A model generated the notes under the pieces. That model did not search any database. It was not told the origin of the DNA and worked only from the letters and a program-made list of their open reading frames with translations. From the NCBI GenBank assembly GCA_030427885.1, contig JAUICM010000001.1:310001-374000 (forward strand): a DNA stretch of 64,000 nucleotides, in the 5' to 3' direction. A program made the position numbers and the translations under genes. Every line of letters starts with the position of its first letter. The stretch's first letter is position 1. Positions 250 to 9,258 of the stretch are shown here, piece after piece. Source of the stretch: Rhodothermia bacterium. Lineage in GTDB: Bacteria > Bacteroidota > Rhodothermia > Balneolales > Balneolaceae.

Positions 250-2031
250 GTGAGTAAAAAAGACACTAAAAAAGCCGTCGACAGAAGATTGATTCGACGG
301 CTTTATTTTTTCGTAAAGCCCTTTCGCTGGTATGTAGTCCTTGCGGTTGTACTTACCCTGATTGCTTCATTTCTTGGCACACTGATGCCCAAGCTTACGC
401 AGATTGCAGTTGATGATTACATTGCCAAGGGAGATTTTGAAGGATTGATGGGGATTATCGTACTGCTGGTTGTGGTATTGGTATCAGAGTTTATACTACT
501 CATGCTCAATACCTATTTAACGAGATGGTTTGGCCAGGGAACACTTTACTCTTTACGGAATGCGATCTTTAAAAAAATTCAATCCCTGCACGTTCAGTTC
601 TTCGACAGAAACCCAATTGGCCGTTTGATCACCAGATCAACCAGTGACGTTGAAGCATTAAGTGAACTGATGTCGGATGGAGTAGTAGCTATTATTGGGG
701 ATATGTTCAGGATTGTGTTCATTTTGTACTTCATGTTCAGTATGGATTGGGAATTGAGTCTTGTTACAATTGCGGTTCTGCCAATCTTATTCTATGCCAC
801 ATTCTGGTTCAAAGAAAAAGTACGTGTATCGTTTCTGAAGGTGCGCGATCAGATCTCCAATGTGAATTCTTTTGTTCAGGAGCATATTAATGGGATGGAT
901 GTGGTGCAGCTCTTCAACAGAGAGAAAAGAGAACAGGCAAAATTTGAGGCGATCAATAAAAGTCACAAAGAAGCCCATGTAGAAACTATATTTTATTTCT
1001 CCATTTTTTGGCCGATCGTTGAAGTATTCTCAAGTTTTGCAATGGCACTCATTGTTTGGTATGGTGGTGGAAGAGCACTCATGGGCGGGGTTACTTTTGG
1101 AGTGTTGCTGGCGTTCATTCAGTACTCGCGCCAATTCTTTATGCCCATCAGGGGACTCTCAGAAAAATTCAATACCCTTCAGTCAGCACTGGCATCATCA
1201 GAACGAATATTCAATATCCTTGATACTGATACCGATATAGAGGAAGTGAAAAATCCGGAATCGATCCCTGATCCTAAAGGTGAGATCGAGTTTGAAAATG
1301 TGTGGTTCAGGTATAATGAAGGGGAAGACTATGTGCTTAAAAATGTTTCCTTCAAAGCGAAGTCAGGTGAAAATGTAGCCATTGTGGGGGCTACCGGTGC
1401 TGGAAAAACCACAATCATAAATTTACTTCTCAGGTTTTATGACATCGAGAAAGGAACAATCAGGTTAGATGGTGTCGATATTCGAAAACTGAGTCTGGGA
1501 GAACTTCGTAAATATTTTTCGTTGGTACTTCAGGACAATGCATTATTCACCGGAACAATTCTGGAGAACATCACACTTGGCGAAGATAGTATTACCAGAG
1601 AACAGGTGATAGAAGCTGCGCATCAGGTTGAAGCACATCGTTTTATTGAGAAGTTACCGAATACCTATGATTATAAACTTCAGAGACAGGGAACATCATT
1701 ATCCATGGGGCAGAGACAATTGATATGTTTTGTACGTGCAATGGTATTCGACCCCAAGATACTGATCCTTGATGAAGCTACTTCCAGTATCGATTCAGAG
1801 ACAGAATCGCTGGTGAACGAAGCTTCTCAGAAAATGATGCACGGAAGAACTTCTATAGTGATCGCACACCGGCTTTCAACTATTCAACATGCCGATAAGA
1901 TACTTGTAATGCATAAGGGAGAGATCAGGGAAGAAGGTTCGCACGCCGAACTCATTACCCAGGAAAACGGGCTGTACAAAAAGCTATACGAACTTCAATA
2001 TAAAGAGCAGGTTTTGACGACGAATGAGTAA
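250..2031 (+). CDS. ABC transporter, fused permease and ATPase (MsbA/LmrA-type exporter)
   Basis: This 593-residue half-transporter has a six-helix membrane domain (about residues 20-310) followed by an ATPase domain. Visible motifs are Walker A GATGAGKTT near 380, the signature LSMGQ near 483, Walker B ILILDEA near 504 and the H-loop IAHRLS near 537. The family exports lipids, peptides or drugs across the inner membrane as a homo- or heterodimer. The signature has Met in the third position (LSMGQ instead of LSGGQ), a variation seen in some heterodimeric exporters, but no partner half-transporter lies next to it. The start is GTG, 10 bp after the stop of the preceding gene. The substrate cannot be told from sequence. 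Confidence 0.9.
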   Translation: MSKKDTKKAVDRRLIRRLYFFVKPFRWYVVLAVVLTLIASFLGTLMPKLTQIAVDDYIAKGDFEGLMGIIVLLVVVLVSEFILLMLNTYLTRWFGQGTLYSLRNAIFKKIQSLHVQFFDRNPIGRLITRSTSDVEALSELMSDGVVAIIGDMFRIVFILYFMFSMDWELSLVTIAVLPILFYATFWFKEKVRVSFLKVRDQISNVNSFVQEHINGMDVVQLFNREKREQAKFEAINKSHKEAHVETIFYFSIFWPIVEVFSSFAMALIVWYGGGRALMGGVTFGVLLAFIQYSRQFFMPIRGLSEKFNTLQSALASSERIFNILDTDTDIEEVKNPESIPDPKGEIEFENVWFRYNEGEDYVLKNVSFKAKSGENVAIVGATGAGKTTIINLLLRFYDIEKGTIRLDGVDIRKLSLGELRKYFSLVLQDNALFTGTILENITLGEDSITREQVIEAAHQVEAHRFIEKLPNTYDYKLQRQGTSLSMGQRQLICFVRAMVFDPKILILDEATSSIDSETESLVNEASQKMMHGRTSIVIAHRLSTIQHADKILVMHKGEIREEGSHAELITQENGLYKKLYELQYKEQVLTTNE

Positions 2032-2101: not shown

Positions 2102-4282
2102 CTACTCAACAACAATCGCGATCTCCTCCCTAATATCCCGTGAAGATGAACCAATCAGAATTGTATAATCACCGGGTTCAACAACCCAGCTCATAGTTGA
2201 TTCATTGAAGTATGCAAGGTCTTTAATATCAAAAGTGATGGTGCTGGATACAGTTTTACCTGCATTGACACTGACCTTTGTAAATCCCTTGAGTTCCTTG
2301 GCAGGTCGCATTACACCGGATTTATCGGCCCTGACATAAGCCTGAACTATTTCTTTTCCATCTTTATCGCCCGTATTTGTGACAGGTATGGTTATTTCTA
2401 ATACATCATTTGCGCTGAAACGTGTTTTGTTGATCTTAGGGGAACCATATTTGAAGGTGGAGTATGACAGCCCGAAACCAAATGGATATTTCGGATCAAT
2501 ATTCTTGGTATCAAACCAACGGTATCCTACCAGAATATCTTCCTCATAAACTACTTCTGTTTCATTACCAGGAAAGCTGTTCGTTGCATGGGCAGGGGAA
2601 TCTTCCAGTTTTTCAGGTATAGTAAATGGAAGTTTTCCTGAAGGATTAACCGTTCCGATAAGTACATCAGCGATGGCATTTCCTGCTTCGGAACCATTGA
2701 ACCAGGACCAAACGAAGGATGAGGTTGTCGGTTCAATTTCGCGAAGATCAAAAGGAGTTCCCGCTACCATGACCACAATTGTATTAGGGTTAGCAGCGGT
2801 TACAGCTTTAACTAATTCTGCCTGACCAAACGGAAGTTCCATGGTTGTCCGGTCCGAAGCCTCTGATTCAACAAGTCGGTTTCCACCTATAAAAACAAGT
2901 GCGTATTCTGAATTTTTTGCAAGCTCAACCGCCTCAGCAACAAGGGAAGGGTCTCCTTTGAAAGCAGGTGACCTCATGAAGCCATTCCTTTCGTAGGTTT
3001 CATCATATCCTTTAGCGTAATTGATCTCCACATTGGGTAAGCGGTTCTTAAGGCCTTCAAGTGGTGTTACCTCATAAACTACCTTTACACCAGCTCCAAA
3101 TCCGCCAGAAGAAAGAGTTTGTGTAGCATTATCTCCAATAACAGCGATACTATTAAGCTCAGAGGTACTTAGAGGTAGCAGATTCGCTTCATTTTTCAAA
3201 AGCACAATAGATTCTGAAGCAACTTTATAAACCAGTTCACTGTGTTCGGGGGTGTTGATCGATCCCGTTTTCCGGGTGGGGTCGTTCTTTTTAACATTCA
3301 AAAGTACACGAACCACTCTGGAGGCCATGTCATCAACTACACTCTGTGGTACATCTCCATCCTGAACAGCTTTAGCTAAAGGGTCACCAAAATATGTTTC
3401 ATGGTAGGTACCCTCGCCACCGTTACCCATACTTATATCCAATCCATACAAAGCTGATTCCACCGTACTGTGAGTTGCTCCCCAATCCGACATTACGGTA
3501 CCTTTAAAACCCCATTCGCCTTTTAAAATGTCTCTGAGCAGGTATTCATTCTCACAAACATAAGGCCCACGAAAACGGTTATATGAACACATTACAGAAT
3601 AGACATCAGCTTCTTGTACCGCTGCTTTATACACAGGCAGATAGATCTCCCGAATAGCACGCTCACTTGCCTGCACATCGATACTTCCCCGTCTTGTTTC
3701 CTGGTTATTGATCGCATAATGTTTGATAGTTGCGGCTACATCCTGGCTTTGAATACCTTTGATCATTGGAACAGCAATGTTCGAATTCAATACCGGGTCT
3801 TCCGAGAAATATTCGTAATTCCGACCACCAAGGGGACTTCGCTGAATATTAACTGCGGGTGCAAGGAGGTAATCTTTATTGCGTGCTCGTGCTTCAGCTC
3901 CCATTGCTGAACCGTATTCATAAGCAAGATCTGTGTTCCAGGTAGCCGATAATCCGCCTCCGGCAGGGAAGAAGGTAGCTGAGTCGGTGGTCCATCCGGC
4001 TGGTGACCAGCTGTGGCGCTCCAGTTCCTCGCGAATACCTAACGGGCCGTCCGCGTATTGAACCTCGTCAATACCAAGCCGCTCAATCCCGGCAGACCAG
4101 AATTTTCCGTTCCCATAGAACAGGGATACTTTTTCATCCAGAGATAGAGAGTTAACAATTTCAGAGACTTTTGGTTCGAGAGATGGATCAAATTTGTATG
4201 AAGTATCTTCACTGATGGCTCTATTACAGTTAGACAGTACTACAAGAAGTAGTACGAATCCAACAAATCTTGATATTTTCAT
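2102..4282 (-). CDS. Glycoside hydrolase family 3 beta-glucosidase-like protein
   Basis: The 726-residue protein has the full GH3 layout: an N-terminal TIM-barrel domain, an alpha/beta sandwich domain, and a C-terminal fibronectin-III-like domain (last 80 residues). The expected nucleophile is the Asp of MSDWGATHS near residue 265, and the substrate-binding KHYAINNQE segment lies near 189. Family members remove terminal beta-glucosyl or related residues from oligosaccharides with retention. The N-terminus is a hydrophobic signal ending LSNC, which resembles a lipobox but has Asn at -1, so lipidation is uncertain; export to the periplasm or surface is likely. It stands alone, without a polysaccharide-utilisation locus around it. 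Exact glycan specificity is not readable. Confidence 0.92.
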   Translation of the reverse strand: MKISRFVGFVLLLVVLSNCNRAISEDTSYKFDPSLEPKVSEIVNSLSLDEKVSLFYGNGKFWSAGIERLGIDEVQYADGPLGIREELERHSWSPAGWTTDSATFFPAGGGLSATWNTDLAYEYGSAMGAEARARNKDYLLAPAVNIQRSPLGGRNYEYFSEDPVLNSNIAVPMIKGIQSQDVAATIKHYAINNQETRRGSIDVQASERAIREIYLPVYKAAVQEADVYSVMCSYNRFRGPYVCENEYLLRDILKGEWGFKGTVMSDWGATHSTVESALYGLDISMGNGGEGTYHETYFGDPLAKAVQDGDVPQSVVDDMASRVVRVLLNVKKNDPTRKTGSINTPEHSELVYKVASESIVLLKNEANLLPLSTSELNSIAVIGDNATQTLSSGGFGAGVKVVYEVTPLEGLKNRLPNVEINYAKGYDETYERNGFMRSPAFKGDPSLVAEAVELAKNSEYALVFIGGNRLVESEASDRTTMELPFGQAELVKAVTAANPNTIVVMVAGTPFDLREIEPTTSSFVWSWFNGSEAGNAIADVLIGTVNPSGKLPFTIPEKLEDSPAHATNSFPGNETEVVYEEDILVGYRWFDTKNIDPKYPFGFGLSYSTFKYGSPKINKTRFSANDVLEITIPVTNTGDKDGKEIVQAYVRADKSGVMRPAKELKGFTKVSVNAGKTVSSTITFDIKDLAYFNESTMSWVVEPGDYTILIGSSSRDIREEIAIVVE

Positions 4283-4360: not shown

Positions 4361-4897
4361 TCAGAATATTTGCTTAACCAATTGGTATACATGGTTATAA
4401 ATCCCCGGCGAAGTGCCCTCACTCGGCCCGCCCACACTCAAAATTTCTATCTCATTATCCTTAATCCACTTTCTGGTTTTAATGATAATCTCATTTTCTG
4501 CCTCGCTCCGGTGGTCCCCGTCGGAGCGGTTATGACTCAGAACATCGTAACCAGGAATCAATGAAGGATTTATAATCAGAAAAGGTCTTCCAAACTGCTT
4601 AGCAGCCTCAAGGGCCAGCTTTGTACCTTTGTCTCGATGCTCATCCGATAAAAAAATCAATGAAGCATCTGAATCCCGAACATTCCAGATCGTTCTTTGA
4701 GACCTGGGGACATCGGGCGCTGAAGGATCACATTCTTCCGGTGTTTCTCTGAGTTTGAATCGTTCTGGAATTATTCCGTTTTCGCAAACTTTCCCGGGTG
4801 GACACCAGCCGCCGTGCTCTAATCCGGAATCAATTGCTGCCTGTAGTGCAGCCTGATCAACGCCTGTCTGGCCTCCGGATACAATCTTCTCGAGCAT
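4361..4897 (-). CDS. Putative molybdenum carrier / SLOG-fold protein
   Basis: The 178-residue protein begins with IVSGGQTGVDQAAL, a glycine-rich nucleotide-binding loop, followed by GGWCPPGKVCENG and a Ser-Gly-Pro-rich C-terminus (SVGGPSEGTSPGI). This is the pattern of the YpsA/SLOG-like family that Pfam calls putative molybdenum carrier, relatives of the molybdenum cofactor carrier protein. Molybdenum binding has not been established for most members, and SLOG proteins in general bind nucleotides or nucleotide-derived ligands. Its start codon overlaps the stop of the upstream BtaB-like gene by one base, so translation is probably coupled. Confidence 0.8.
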   Translation of the reverse strand: MLEKIVSGGQTGVDQAALQAAIDSGLEHGGWCPPGKVCENGIIPERFKLRETPEECDPSAPDVPRSQRTIWNVRDSDASLIFLSDEHRDKGTKLALEAAKQFGRPFLIINPSLIPGYDVLSHNRSDGDHRSEAENEIIIKTRKWIKDNEIEILSVGGPSEGTSPGIYNHVYQLVKQIF

Positions 4898-5496
4898 TAT
4901 ACATTCGTTGCTTTGAAAAAGGAGTAGGTATACAAACCAAGATAGCCCTTTCGGGTATATAGCTGATGATCACCAAATAAATTAGTAAGAATGGTAAATA
5001 GTCCTGACTTCATATCCACATGATTTATCATCATCCATTCCCTGAACCATTTAAAAGGCGTATTGTCAAAATCAACAACCAGGAGAGTACCTTCAGGCTT
5101 TAAGTGATATTTGATATGATCCAGTTTTTTGGGAATCTCTTCCACCATGGTAAGAGAGTATGACCCCACAATCATATCAAAAGTGTTTTCTTCGAATAGT
5201 TCTTCGATATAAGCTGAGTAAATAAGTTGTACAGATTCTCCAAGTTTCTCTCGTGCAATATCCAGCATATGCTCGGAACGATCTACTCCAGTGATTTTGG
5301 CATCAGGGTAGTGTTTCTTTAGTTGTACGAGTTGTTTACCCGTTCCACATCCAAGATCGAGAATAGATGGATTTGCAGGGAGCTCTGGATATAATCTTTG
5401 CATGGAACTTCTTCCAAAAAGAAAAGCCCATCGCGTCAGGTCATAGAACTTTGAATGCAGGAGGTAGTAATTATCCTGTGAAGAAAAAGGATTCAT
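4897..5496 (-). CDS. btaB: BtaB-like SAM methyltransferase (betaine lipid synthesis)
   Basis: This 199-residue class I methyltransferase has SAM motif I ILDLGCGTG at residues 45-53 and SYSLTM at the motif that follows the second strand pair. Upstream of motif I is YDLTRWAFLFGR (18-29). As I remember it, bacterial BtaB has the same YDLTRxxFLxGR lead-in and SYSLSM motif, and trimethylates the headgroup that BtaA makes, giving diacylglyceryl-N,N,N-trimethylhomoserine. The BtaA-like gene lies 1.1 kb upstream on the same strand, separated by a plus-strand lipoprotein gene. The family call rests on these motifs and the neighbour; a generic methyltransferase is the alternative. Confidence 0.7.
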   Translation of the reverse strand: MNPFSSQDNYYLLHSKFYDLTRWAFLFGRSSMQRLYPELPANPSILDLGCGTGKQLVQLKKHYPDAKITGVDRSEHMLDIAREKLGESVQLIYSAYIEELFEENTFDMIVGSYSLTMVEEIPKKLDHIKYHLKPEGTLLVVDFDNTPFKWFREWMMINHVDMKSGLFTILTNLFGDHQLYTRKGYLGLYTYSFFKATNV

Positions 5497-5580
5497 TAGA
5501 CAATAGAGACAATTTTGGGTGAGGTTCTGAAACTAAATTGTATTTTACAGCGCAACGAATAACCCCAAGTAAGCCAGAAG

Positions 5581-6615
5581 ATGAGAATAGTTCAAGTTAT
5601 TTCCATATTAATTTTAATAATAACTATGGCTTGTGCCAATAGAGAACCAGTATTAAAATGGGAATTACAGGAACTGGATTCTAAAGCATCAATAAGAGGT
5701 ATTTCTGTTGTTGACGAAAATATTGCCTGGTTAAGCGGAAGTAATGGTACGATTGCAAGAACCATCGATGGGGGTAAGACCTGGAAGAAAATATTTGCAC
5801 CAATCGATACCCTCGATTACAGGGATATTGAAGCTTTTAGTGAGGATGAGGCTATCATTCTGAGCATTGGAACAGGAGATCCATCCAAAGTTTTCAAAAC
5901 AATGAATGGAGGCGTTACCTGGGAACAGGTGCACCAGAATGAATACGCAGAAGGATTCTATACCGGGATCGCATTCTGGGACAAAGACCACGGCTTTTTG
6001 GTTGGAGATCCGGTGGAGGGCCATAATTTTGTATTAACCACAGATGACGGTGGGCAAAATTGGACTCGTGTTGATACTTCTGCAATGCCACCATTGCTGG
6101 ATACTGAATATGGTTTTGCAGCCAGTGGTACTCACCTGACAGTATTTGGAGAGAATAAAGCCTGGATCGGAACAGGTGGAGTGAACTCCAGGGTGTTCTA
6201 TTCAAACGACAGAGGCCGAAACTGGGAAGTGACTGAAACCCCGATCATTCAGGGGGAACCATCTACCGGTATTTTTTCTCTGGAATTCAACACTCCACAA
6301 TATGGTGTGGCTGTTGGCGGGGATTATACCAAAGAAGAAGAGGGGCAGGATAATGTGATGGTCACGGAGGATGGAGGCAAAACATGGAAGCTTTCAACTG
6401 CATCTAAGCTTGATTACCGTTCCTGTGTTCGTTTTGCAGGTGATCTGGTTCTTGCTACCGGGCCTTCTGGTTCAGACTACTCTACTGACGGTGGTAAAAC
6501 CTGGAAAGGATTTGGTGACCAGGGTTTTCATACTATGAGTGTCGGCAAAGACGGACTGAAGTCGGTTTGGGCGGCAGGCTCTGGTGGCAGAGTGGCAAAA
6601 CTGATCGTTGAATAA
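5581..6615 (+). CDS. BNR/Ycf48-like beta-propeller lipoprotein
   Basis: The 344-residue protein starts with a lipoprotein signal ending in TMAC, so it is probably anchored in a membrane on the outer side. The rest is a beta-propeller with about six Asp-box repeats of the form DGGxTW (for example IDGGKTW, NGGVTW, TDDGGQNW, TEDGGKTW, TDGGKTW). Proteins of this kind are often annotated as oxidoreductase, sialidase-like or photosystem assembly factor Ycf48-like, but no catalytic residue set is obvious and the function is unknown. It lies on the plus strand between two minus-strand betaine-lipid genes, and its stop directly abuts the stop of the BtaA-like gene. Confidence 0.8.
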   Translation: MRIVQVISILILIITMACANREPVLKWELQELDSKASIRGISVVDENIAWLSGSNGTIARTIDGGKTWKKIFAPIDTLDYRDIEAFSEDEAIILSIGTGDPSKVFKTMNGGVTWEQVHQNEYAEGFYTGIAFWDKDHGFLVGDPVEGHNFVLTTDDGGQNWTRVDTSAMPPLLDTEYGFAASGTHLTVFGENKAWIGTGGVNSRVFYSNDRGRNWEVTETPIIQGEPSTGIFSLEFNTPQYGVAVGGDYTKEEEGQDNVMVTEDGGKTWKLSTASKLDYRSCVRFAGDLVLATGPSGSDYSTDGGKTWKGFGDQGFHTMSVGKDGLKSVWAAGSGGRVAKLIVE

Positions 6616-7743
6616 TTAGTTCTTCAATTTACCTGTAAATGTACTGGTATACGTGCCAACCCGATCATTTAAAGCCAACCATTCAGGGTCAATACGTTTT
6701 AATTCTAAATTCCGAATTGCGATCTCAGGTAGAAAATTTTTGTGATCATATGCAGAACGGAATAAGAACTCAGCCCCGGGCTGTGCTTTCTGAAGCATGA
6801 GTTCCCATTCTTTGATAAGGGCTTTCTGATTATGTTCAGCAAGCCAATCCATATGATCCAGTAAAACGAAATGAGAATATTTACCTCGATCGTTTTCCAA
6901 AAATGAGATCAAATCATCAGAAGAGAAATTTAATTTATGTACGGATTGTTTCAGGATCTCAAAATTGGAAGGTTTTAAATAATCCGGGCAGGATTCTCTA
7001 GTAAAGCTTCCTTCAATATAGGCTTTCCAGTAAGGGTTGAATCGGGCTGACTGCTTTACAAATACATTTCTGAGTACTTTTTTTATAAATGTATCGATAT
7101 CACCAAGTGCTTCTCGTTGACTTTTTGGGATTCCTGCCAGGCTTAATACACCTGTCGATTTCCAAAGATACTGTGAAGTACCACTCCATATTTTAGCTTC
7201 AATTTCCTCAAGGATATGGGAACGTTTTTCTTCATTCTCTTCATAGATAAGTTCCAGAACATCATCATGAAGGTCTTTTCGGCTTAACATCTTATTCAGG
7301 AATCGTGCAAAAGTACCCGAACCCCCATGATAAAATAATCCACGGCCTGTAGGATCAAAGTAACGAATATGCTCATCCCAGAACCTTCTGGATTCATGCT
7401 TCAGGTTTTCTTTAACCTGATGATAAACCCGGATATGATTCTCCGATCGTCCCTTCCCAAAAAAATCAAAGAAAGTTTGATGATCACAATTATTGATCAG
7501 CGCCAATTTTAGATCCAGAAGCGCGTTCTGTTTAGGATTGATGTCCACACATTGAACTGAAGCAGGGGAGTCTAGTAAATAATCAAGGGCATTATCGCCT
7601 GCACTGGTGATCATAAGGATATTACTGTGGTTGTTAAAACTGAGTAATTCCCGGTCAACTTTAGAGTCTTCCCAGCAAATATTGTAGATCAATAAATTGG
7701 AATGAAGAAAATTGAACCAGATCTGTGATGGACTGAAAGTCAT
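6616..7743 (-). CDS. btaA: BtaA-like SAM:diacylglycerol 3-amino-3-carboxypropyl transferase (DUF3419)
   Basis: The 375-residue protein carries the marks of the DUF3419/BtaA family: YNICWEDSKVD (20-30), the SAM-binding ITSAGDNALDY (45-55), VDINPKQ (66-72), and FVLLDHMDWL in the C-terminal third. BtaA transfers the 3-amino-3-carboxypropyl group of SAM to diacylglycerol, the first step to betaine lipids, which can replace phospholipids when phosphate is short. The enzyme is expected at the cytoplasmic face of the membrane. The BtaB-like methyltransferase at 4897-5496 would complete the pathway. Length is slightly shorter than the roughly 400-residue proteobacterial enzymes. Confidence 0.82.
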   Translation of the reverse strand: MTFSPSQIWFNFLHSNLLIYNICWEDSKVDRELLSFNNHSNILMITSAGDNALDYLLDSPASVQCVDINPKQNALLDLKLALINNCDHQTFFDFFGKGRSENHIRVYHQVKENLKHESRRFWDEHIRYFDPTGRGLFYHGGSGTFARFLNKMLSRKDLHDDVLELIYEENEEKRSHILEEIEAKIWSGTSQYLWKSTGVLSLAGIPKSQREALGDIDTFIKKVLRNVFVKQSARFNPYWKAYIEGSFTRESCPDYLKPSNFEILKQSVHKLNFSSDDLISFLENDRGKYSHFVLLDHMDWLAEHNQKALIKEWELMLQKAQPGAEFLFRSAYDHKNFLPEIAIRNLELKRIDPEWLALNDRVGTYTSTFTGKLKN

Positions 7744-7844
7744 GAATTAGAAACTGAAACTTAAAAGCATTATTAAGTGTTTAAGATTACAAACAATTAA
7801 ACTTCAATTTTGTATTTTTAAAAACAATTAACAGTGAGGATATT

Positions 7845-8138: not shown

Positions 8139-9258
8139 ATGGCAATAAATAAAGACCATTTGCAGGAAAACTATGAGCGTTTGGACGCGCTCAGGAGGTA
8201 CCTTTGACTACGATAAACGAAAAGTCAGAATAATTGAATTAACAGAACAGACTCAGGACCCTCAGTTCTGGAACGACCCGGCGGCTGCACAGGCCGTAAT
8301 GAAGCAACTGGATAACCAGAAAAGTCTAGTTGGTTCGTGGGATGAACTCAACGATCTGAGGGATAGCATCAATGTATTTCTTGAGTTCCAGGAAATGGGG
8401 GAGGATGTTGAATCCGAACTCGAAGAAGAGTACAAAAAGCTGCTAAAAGGACTGGAAAGTCTGGAGCTAAGGAACATGCTCAAGGGAAGTGATGATCATC
8501 GAGATGCGGTGGTTACATTCAATCCCGGTGCAGGAGGAACAGAAAGTCAGGACTGGGGCGAAATGCTTTATCGCATGTATACCAGATGGGCTGAACGCAG
8601 CGGGTTCAAAGTTTCTGTGATCGACTATCAGGATGGCGAAGTTGCAGGCCTTAAAAGTGCGACCATTGAGGTGCAGGGGAATAACGCCTATGGTTTCCTT
8701 AAAGCAGAAAGTGGAGTTCACCGCCTCGTTCGGGTATCACCATTCGATAGTAATGCACGTCGCCATACTTCATTCTGTTCAGTATTTGTTTCACCACTTA
8801 TCGACGATACTATAGAGGTTGATATAAATGATAGTGATGTGGAATTACAGCGTTTTCATTCCAGTGGAGCCGGAGGTCAGAACGTGAACAAAGTTGAAAC
8901 AGGAGTGCGCCTGGTGTGGTCAGGTAAGCTGTCTGACGGATCCGAACCTCGTGTGGTAGCTGAGTGTCAACAGGAGCGATCGCAGCTTCAGAACAGGGAA
9001 AAGGCGATGATCTTGCTGAAATCCAGGATCTATGAGCTCGAGAAAGAAATTCAGGAAGCTGAAAAAGCAAAGCTTGAAGGGAGTAAAGGAAAAAATGAAT
9101 GGGGCTCTCAGATCAGAAGCTATGTATTCGATGATCAGCGGGTTAAAGATCACCGTACTAATCATGAAACTTCAAATGTGAGCGGAGTGATGGATGGAGA
9201 TCTGGACGATTTTATAAAAGCCTATCTGTTGTTGATCTCAACTCAGGAACAGAAATAA
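8139..9258 (+). CDS. prfB: Peptide chain release factor 2, with programmed +1 frameshift
   Basis: RF2 ends translation at UGA and UAA. A 22-codon first frame starts at ATG 8139 and meets in-frame TGA at 8205-8207; shifting +1 after CTT (8202-8204) joins it to the long frame that runs to 9258, giving about 372 residues, the usual RF2 length. The main frame has the RF2-specific stop-recognition tripeptide SPF (in [11 protein letters not shown]) and the catalytic GGQ (in [10 protein letters not shown]). An ATG at 8173 lies in the long frame but upstream of the shift site and is not the start. The frame switch makes synthesis self-regulating: low RF2 slows termination at TGA and favours shifting. 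Four genes (prfB, nadB, coaE, then fbp) follow closely on this strand. Confidence 0.97.
8193..8208 (+). promoter_or_regulatory. prfB +1 frameshift signal
   Basis: The bases AGGAGG (8193-8198), a perfect internal Shine-Dalgarno sequence, are followed by TAC and the slip site CTTTGAC (8202-8208). Pairing of the ribosome with AGGAGG three bases before CTT, plus the TGA stop, is the classical arrangement that drives RF2 recoding in most bacteria. Confidence 0.96.

Follow-up and report, generated by a model that had tools for sequence, protein, structure and literature searches.

Two questions are raised by a locus of a Balneolaceae bacterium (GenBank assembly GCA_030427885.1): whether its genes resembling btaA and btaB direct the synthesis of a betaine lipid, and why an unrelated gene stands between them. 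The locus occupies positions 4361-7743 of a 64,000-nucleotide stretch of contig JAUICM010000001.1 (positions 310,001 to 374,000), which was analysed as a whole and is called the window. Very probably, it is the btaA-btaB pathway for the betaine lipid diacylglyceryl-N,N,N-trimethylhomoserine (DGTS), and the gene pair has been split by the insertion of a gene for a BNR-repeat propeller protein. A betaine-lipid pathway is a known kind of system; what appears to be new is the separation of btaA from btaB and the third gene, encoding a cpYpsA/SLOG protein. The features of the locus are as follows:

4361-4897, minus strand: cpYpsA/SLOG gene, candidate third gene (PF12694); its start overlaps the btaB stop
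4897-5496, minus strand: btaB-like gene, 199 amino acids (aa); predicted class I S-adenosylmethionine (SAM) methyltransferase
5497-5580, no strand: divergent btaB/BNR gap of 84 bp; carries TTTAGTTTCAG at 5527-5537 (minus strand)
5581-6615, plus strand: BNR/Ycf48-like propeller gene, 344 aa, probable lipoprotein (PF14870, BNR repeats)
6616-7743, minus strand: btaA-like gene, 375 aa (PF11899, DUF3419), with a BtaB-like neighbour in relatives
7744-7844, no strand: btaA leader and divergent gap; carries TTAAGTTTCAG at 7754-7764 (minus strand)

An earlier, sequence-only reading had described minus-strand BtaA-like and BtaB-like genes flanking a plus-strand BNR gene, and all three genes lie where it placed them; the SLOG gene, which it also mentioned, falls outside the interval that it gave. 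The order of transcription on the minus strand is btaA (7743-6616), btaB (5496-4897), and cpYpsA/SLOG (4897-4361). At the last junction, the sequence TAATG joins the btaB TAA (4897-4899) to the SLOG ATG (4895-4897), while the stop codons of BNR (6613-6615) and btaA (6616-6618) abut with no spacer, and the starts of BNR and btaB point apart across the 84 bp. The G+C content is 46.7% in cpYpsA, 44.7% in BNR, and 38.2% in both btaA and btaB.

The btaA-like product matches the DUF3419 profile with 294.9 bits (cut-off 28.2), residues 11-369 covering positions 7-381 of 385. In particular, the motifs WED, LLD..DW, and DR...Y and the residues D67 and N69 are invariant in an alignment with three rhizobial relatives. 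An AlphaFold2 model built from 32 sequences has a mean predicted local distance difference test (pLDDT) score of 90.7, and when it was compared with known structures by VIA-align, the top rows by Z score were SAM-dependent methyltransferases (Z up to 14.8, root-mean-square deviation 2.7, 147 residues). Foldseek gave no match to this model at E ≤1e-3, and the BtaA profile found no convincing homologue in the Protein Data Bank (PDB; best E 0.014 over 63 positions). The modelled fold resembles that of class I methyltransferases, which alone shows no function. The family match, the conserved residues, and the btaB neighbour in relatives bear out the BtaA-like assignment, and the protein is probably an S-adenosylmethionine:diacylglycerol 3-amino-3-carboxypropyltransferase.

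Profile matches class the btaB-like product as a class I SAM methyltransferase, and in the PDB its profile finds other class I methyltransferases, including the phosphatidylethanolamine methyltransferase 8ys9. The motif YD.[TS]R...L.GR is common to this protein and to the methyltransferases adjoining rhizobial DUF3419 genes; identity to rhizobial relatives is 27-36%. Among 111 plasmid records that match BtaB, the top five are from Sinorhizobium (four) and Shinella (one), each match adjoining a DUF3419 gene, and the weaker ones include other methyltransferases. The methyltransferase class, the shared motif, and these best matches uphold the BtaB-like call, and the protein may be assigned as a putative diacylglyceryl-homoserine N-methyltransferase. 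One Sinorhizobium meliloti record, labelled pSymB, carries its DUF3419 gene broken into two open reading frames (ORFs; L051, 3710-4959) beside an intact btaB-like gene; judging by the neighbours metF and pfp, this may be the characterised btaAB locus.

The context of the two genes in other genomes points in the same direction. Of 92 Balneolaceae genomes, 43 carry DUF3419 over the cut-off, with 44 genes in all (the window's genome is G000 in every count), and it is present in each genome of the genera g7 (12), g17 (8), g5 (9), g6 (3), and g11 (3). Thirty-five of the 44 loci were read, namely the window's and 34 others; the remaining nine belong to G253, G353, G354, G355, G356, G357, G358, and G359 and, as a second copy, to G320, and a pair locus from another family (L029, f27) stands outside the counts. 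In 33 of the 34 other loci, btaB adjoins btaA, with gaps from -190 (at longest-ORF starts) to +12 bp; the sole locus without btaB is that of the divergent DUF3419 gene of G003. Among the 35 loci, only the window's has a gene between the two. A scan of named genomes, of which the best 80 of 566 confirmed stretches (591 matched) were used, a sample biased towards the query, found, in 70 loci, a BtaB-like gene no more than 1,500 bp from DUF3419 and in the same orientation. The pairing of btaA with btaB is more than chance. Among these best 80 loci, such pairs also occur in Saprospiraceae, Verrucomicrobiota, Planctomycetota, Lentisphaerota, Desulfobacteraceae, and Gammaproteobacteria. The sequence-only reading, which gave betaine lipids as known mainly from Alphaproteobacteria and algae, was too narrow in this respect, since pairs are found in many phyla and betaine lipids of Bacteroidetes and Verrucomicrobia were already on record in 2023 (PMC10667739).

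Phylogeny agrees with this context. In a 64-row BtaB tree, the window's protein belongs to a group of 19 Balneolaceae rows and a named Balneola metagenome-assembled genome (support 97 in the Shimodaira-Hasegawa-like approximate likelihood ratio test), and this group sits among other BtaA-linked methyltransferases, apart from nine paralogues of the window's own genome. A 57-row BtaA tree has the same main groups, with support of 86 for Balneolaceae and the divergent G003 gene outside. Both trees hold a selected part of the loci and were made by a quick method; their named loci come from Bacteroidota, Balneolota, Verrucomicrobiota, Planctomycetota, Lentisphaerota, Thermodesulfobacteriota, Pseudomonadota, and Acidobacteriota. 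The genome had been described as Balneolota-like, which fits its place in Balneolaceae and the nesting of the named Balneola genome with the window in both trees. Taken together, family, context, and tree make the enzymatic assignment a well-supported one, and on the genomic evidence a DGTS pathway common to much of Balneolaceae is the best reading. From it follows a prediction that can be tested, namely that many members of Balneolaceae are able to produce DGTS.

In the proposed pathway, BtaA would transfer the 3-amino-3-carboxypropyl group of SAM to diacylglycerol, giving diacylglyceryl-homoserine and methylthioadenosine (MTA), and BtaB would trimethylate the amine of diacylglyceryl-homoserine to give DGTS, a phosphorus-free zwitterionic lipid able to take the place of phospholipids. 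The closest known enzymes are BtaA and BtaB of Rhodobacter sphaeroides and Sinorhizobium meliloti, which synthesise DGTS (PMC3972451). Compared with rhizobial pairs from plasmid records, the window's locus likewise pairs a DUF3419 protein with a class I methyltransferase and keeps the residues and motif named above; it differs in its low identity to them, in the split of the pair, in the cpYpsA third gene, and in that no Pho box was seen. Eukaryotic BTA1 is bifunctional, with fused BtaA and BtaB domains (PMC10685587); by description rather than sequence, the same two activities are proposed here for separate proteins.

The gene that separates the pair encodes a protein with a match to PF14870 (Ycf48; 69.7 bits) and BNR repeats. 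Its propeller nature, as originally called, stands; the lipid anchor also proposed is only plausible, since under the lipobox rule the end of its signal peptide (...ITMAC) is a weak lipobox (the G017 orthologue has ...LTAC). No BNR gene lies between btaA and btaB in any of the 34 other Balneolaceae loci read. A search of 22 genomes, the window's included, gave some match in 11, and besides the window's own the only strong ones were in G017 (53%) and G016 (40%), where the gene sits elsewhere, in one case after a peptidase-like gene and in the other between fadJ-like and rpoC-like genes (names given by eye from the sequences). These orthologues at other sites, together with the absence from other bta loci, indicate that BNR is an insertion and not a part of the pathway. 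By comparison, the tight pair that stands next to prfB in relatives has here received a complete, unrelated gene on the opposite strand; as far as sampled, the insertion is specific to the window's genome. Its exact placement between btaA and btaB could be taken as a sign that the BNR protein has a functional link with the synthesis or placement of betaine lipids, yet its occurrence in a single Balneolaceae btaA-btaB locus (1/34) and the strong orthologues elsewhere make this very improbable. That the placement, which is seen in G000 alone, is an assembly artefact is harder still to believe, as both genes are intact and the junction is clean, inside a contig of 704,615 bases of a genome 98.7% complete.

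The arrangement that results from the insertion is a candidate noncontiguous operon. Such operons are known, as in menE-menC / ytkD of Staphylococcus aureus (reviewed in PMC7154746). As there, same-strand genes of one pathway are parted by an opposite-strand gene, here with a spacer of zero between btaA and BNR; unlike menE-menC / ytkD, the window's case is a candidate, and btaB may have its own promoter. The locus offers a natural example of two closely linked genes separated by a gene on the other strand, and it can be compared with relatives in which the two still adjoin.

With BNR in this position, btaB would need either its own promoter or read-through across the antisense BNR gene. A scan for sigma-70-type promoters, which leaves other promoter types aside, found none on the btaB strand of the 84-bp gap; in all, it gave 11 sites (9.1 +/- 3.1 in shuffles), one of them on the btaB strand inside the BNR gene (5639-5611, 10/12). 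Terminator-like sites number 7 (3.4 +/- 2.0 in shuffles), and RNA folding in the gap is no stronger than chance (z 0.61). The element TTWAGTTTCAG stands upstream of both btaA and btaB, a pattern picked after sight of the sequences. Exact matches to TTNAGTTTCAG in the window are confined to these two leader sites, with 14 at one mismatch against 7.6 expected. Genome-wide, the element has 14 copies against 9 for the reversed control: eight lie in or overlap other ORFs of at least 60 aa, and four, including both bta sites, are within 50 bp upstream of an ORF, one copy being counted in both classes. Moreover, the 13-mer AATTTAGTTTCAG of the btaB/BNR gap recurs in the btaA leader of G163. When the btaB leader was compared with 13 btaA leaders, uncorrected P values were about 0.0015 for that of G163, about 0.0035 for G211, and 0.235 for the window's own. 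The shared leader element is thus a hint, and only a hint, of a separate btaB promoter.

Several findings weigh against DGTS as the product or against the history proposed for the locus. BtaA is only about 20-30% identical to its alphaproteobacterial (rhizobial) relatives, so its acceptor could differ; BtaB has a weak match to the PmtA phospholipid N-methyltransferase model (46.9 bits, cut-off 390), by which a phospholipid substrate could still fit the sequence. The BtaB tree includes no row recognised by accession as a characterised BtaB. Grouping of BtaB with unrelated methyltransferases, for which the sequence-only reading had proposed to look, was not seen, but the branch that parts the own-genome paralogues from the rest has a support of 1, which makes the outgroup test by this tree alone weak. 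A literature search turned up no lipid analysis of any Balneolaceae genome that carries the pair, and a Fodinibius type description gives phosphatidylcholine and two unidentified aminolipids (PMC12260241). At up to three mismatches, the Pho box consensus CTGTCATNNNNCTGTCAT matches the 64 kb five times, against 6.8 expected, and nowhere close to bta, so that phosphate control is not established; this consensus may not be the site used in Balneolota. The phosphate-saving remodelling predicted earlier, with its PhoB-like sites, is thus still a prediction. Finally, the insertion rests on one assembly, and the genomes searched hold no second one of the genus.

On these grounds, another acceptor (e.g., an ether or amino-acyl lipid) might mean that the product is some betaine lipid of the homoserine type that is not DGTS; alternatively, BtaB might methylate a phospholipid. 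Besides the low identity of BtaA and the PmtA match of BtaB, this view draws on DUF3419 genes that lack btaB, namely that of G003 and one in a Roseinatronobacter UbiA/AMP-binding cluster. Against it, the pair is kept together, the conserved residues are shared, and DGTS is the simplest common product; we regard a different acceptor as unlikely, and DGTS as the preferred product. Low-scoring DUF3419 genes (146-163 bits) occur in G003 (L012, L023), in G253, and as the second copy in G320, and the lack of a BtaB neighbour in G003 suggests a second function for DUF3419. The Roseinatronobacter gene (L049, 3835-4935) lies on a plasmid and clusters with UbiA, PEP/pyruvate-binding, and AMP-binding genes, with no btaB.

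Unidentified aminolipids have also been reported for Balneola alkaliphila (PMC5167729), while a literature search that mostly did not reach subscription papers found neither btaAB nor DGTS described for Balneolota. In marine Alphaproteobacteria, accumulation of DGTS and btaAB next to plcP are on record (PMC4796936). The idea that the phosphatidylcholine seen in Fodinibius by thin-layer chromatography is misread DGTS was not supported: a fourth PF01066 protein (open frame of 227-232 aa) is present in all four g7 genomes searched, and for the one examined, that of G268, phosphatidylcholine synthase models are the best (170 bits, below the cut-off of 440). On the idea that DGTS is the sole phosphatidylcholine-like lipid open to the window's genome, the evidence is divided. 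Its PF01066 proteins, five in number, all have other models than phosphatidylcholine synthase as their best, and no PEMT-family match was found; yet a methyltransferase, L163, has PmtA as its best model (73.5 bits, far below the cut-off of 390), so another route to phosphatidylcholine may exist there.

The third gene encodes a protein that matches PF12694 (cpYpsA) with 136.9 bits (cut-off 26.2) and, by phmmer, PDB entry 3imk (E 7.6e-19). The superfamily includes that entry, a 'putative molybdenum carrier protein', and Bacillus subtilis YpsA (PMC6459960). Unlike known cpYpsA/SLOG proteins, the window's has an operonic link to btaB, and the btaB-linked set has the signatures HGGWCPPG and SQRTI.NVRD in common, with small departures; plasmid homologues covering at least 60% are 29-37% identical. 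Eight of the 92 Balneolaceae genomes have a PF12694 match over the cut-off (G003 has one more, below it), and in seven of the eight cpYpsA lies directly 3' of btaB on the same strand, at spacings of -1 bp (G000), -4 (G005), -4 (G010), +15 (G097), -16 (G151), +79 (G326), and +128 (G211). The eighth (L153 of G352, 7% contamination) is of another subtype, in a genome without DUF3419, and btaB was not found in its stretch; it adjoins two short ORFs resembling a nucleotidyltransferase/HEPN pair.

The link between SLOG and btaB is real and patchy. Of the earlier suggestion that the SLOG protein is coupled to btaB and may be a new part of the pathway, the coupling holds, while the pathway role is hypothetical in view of the patchy presence. 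It stands close to an even bet, leaning slightly against, that cpYpsA contributes nothing to the lipid pathway and is a passenger held at the site by descent. Of the 34 loci read in Balneolaceae with a btaA-btaB pair (33 and the window's), only seven contain it, namely those of two of three g6, three of three g11, and one of eight g17 genomes and the window's; it is absent from G163, the sister of G211 in the BtaA tree, and from the best 80 named loci (flanks up to 6 kb), and its G+C content exceeds that of btaA and btaB. Its presence on the BtaA tree requires three changes over 19 Balneolaceae rows. What speaks for more than descent is the position directly after btaB in seven of eight cases, the overlap of reading frames in three besides the window, and the retention of the link in G097, of another genus, where BtaA and BtaB have only 45 and 50% identity to those of the window. 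If it has a role, the protein might act in the pathway or help to regulate it through a bound nucleotide-like ligand, though this is a guess. A more ambitious proposal, by which SLOG would be a third component, a sensor of a nucleotide ligand or an enzyme, tuning a SAM-consuming pathway, the three genes would be co-expressed across the antisense BNR gene, and BNR expression and DGTS synthesis would be reciprocally linked, is speculative and rather doubtful. As an operon partner, cpYpsA could have its function probed in the setting of a defined pathway of two enzymes.

A function of SLOG in handling MTA, the by-product of BtaA, was considered and found no support, as cpYpsA does not track MTA enzymes. 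The MTA/S-adenosylhomocysteine nucleosidase model TIGR01704 is over its cut-off in 2 of 32 genomes (G005, with cpYpsA, and G101, without), and the MTAP model gives one to three weak matches in all 32, none over the cut-off. A single-sequence structure model of the SLOG protein was poor (pLDDT 37.4) and was not used. Eight Maribacter phage records (e.g., MT732450.1) carry cpYpsA-like SLOG genes, with about 34% identity over 60% of the query.

In relatives with long flanks, most loci run from [ABC transporter] and [SLOG] through btaB and btaA to a small gene (with a DUF883-like match below the cut-off) and prfB, followed in some by nadB, coaE, and fbp. The site next to the small gene and prfB is kept in most of them, with single members missing in some; G003 shares only its divergent DUF3419 gene with the usual locus. 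G211 has the order GH3-SLOG-btaB-btaA of the window, minus BNR. The GH3-family glycosidase gene adjoining SLOG in the window (2102-4282, minus strand) is 76% identical in G211 and unmatched in the other long stretches compared. ABC exporter half-transporters (window 250-2031, plus strand; L016, L020-L022, L176-L179) adjoin btaAB convergently in many relatives, and a role in lipid export is possible. The window's prfB (8139-9258, plus strand; TIGR00020, 461.6 bits) has a frame that, from the ATG at 8139, stops at the TGA in AGGAGGTACCTTTGAC (8193-8208), the long ORF going on in the +1 frame; this is the classic layout of a programmed frameshift.

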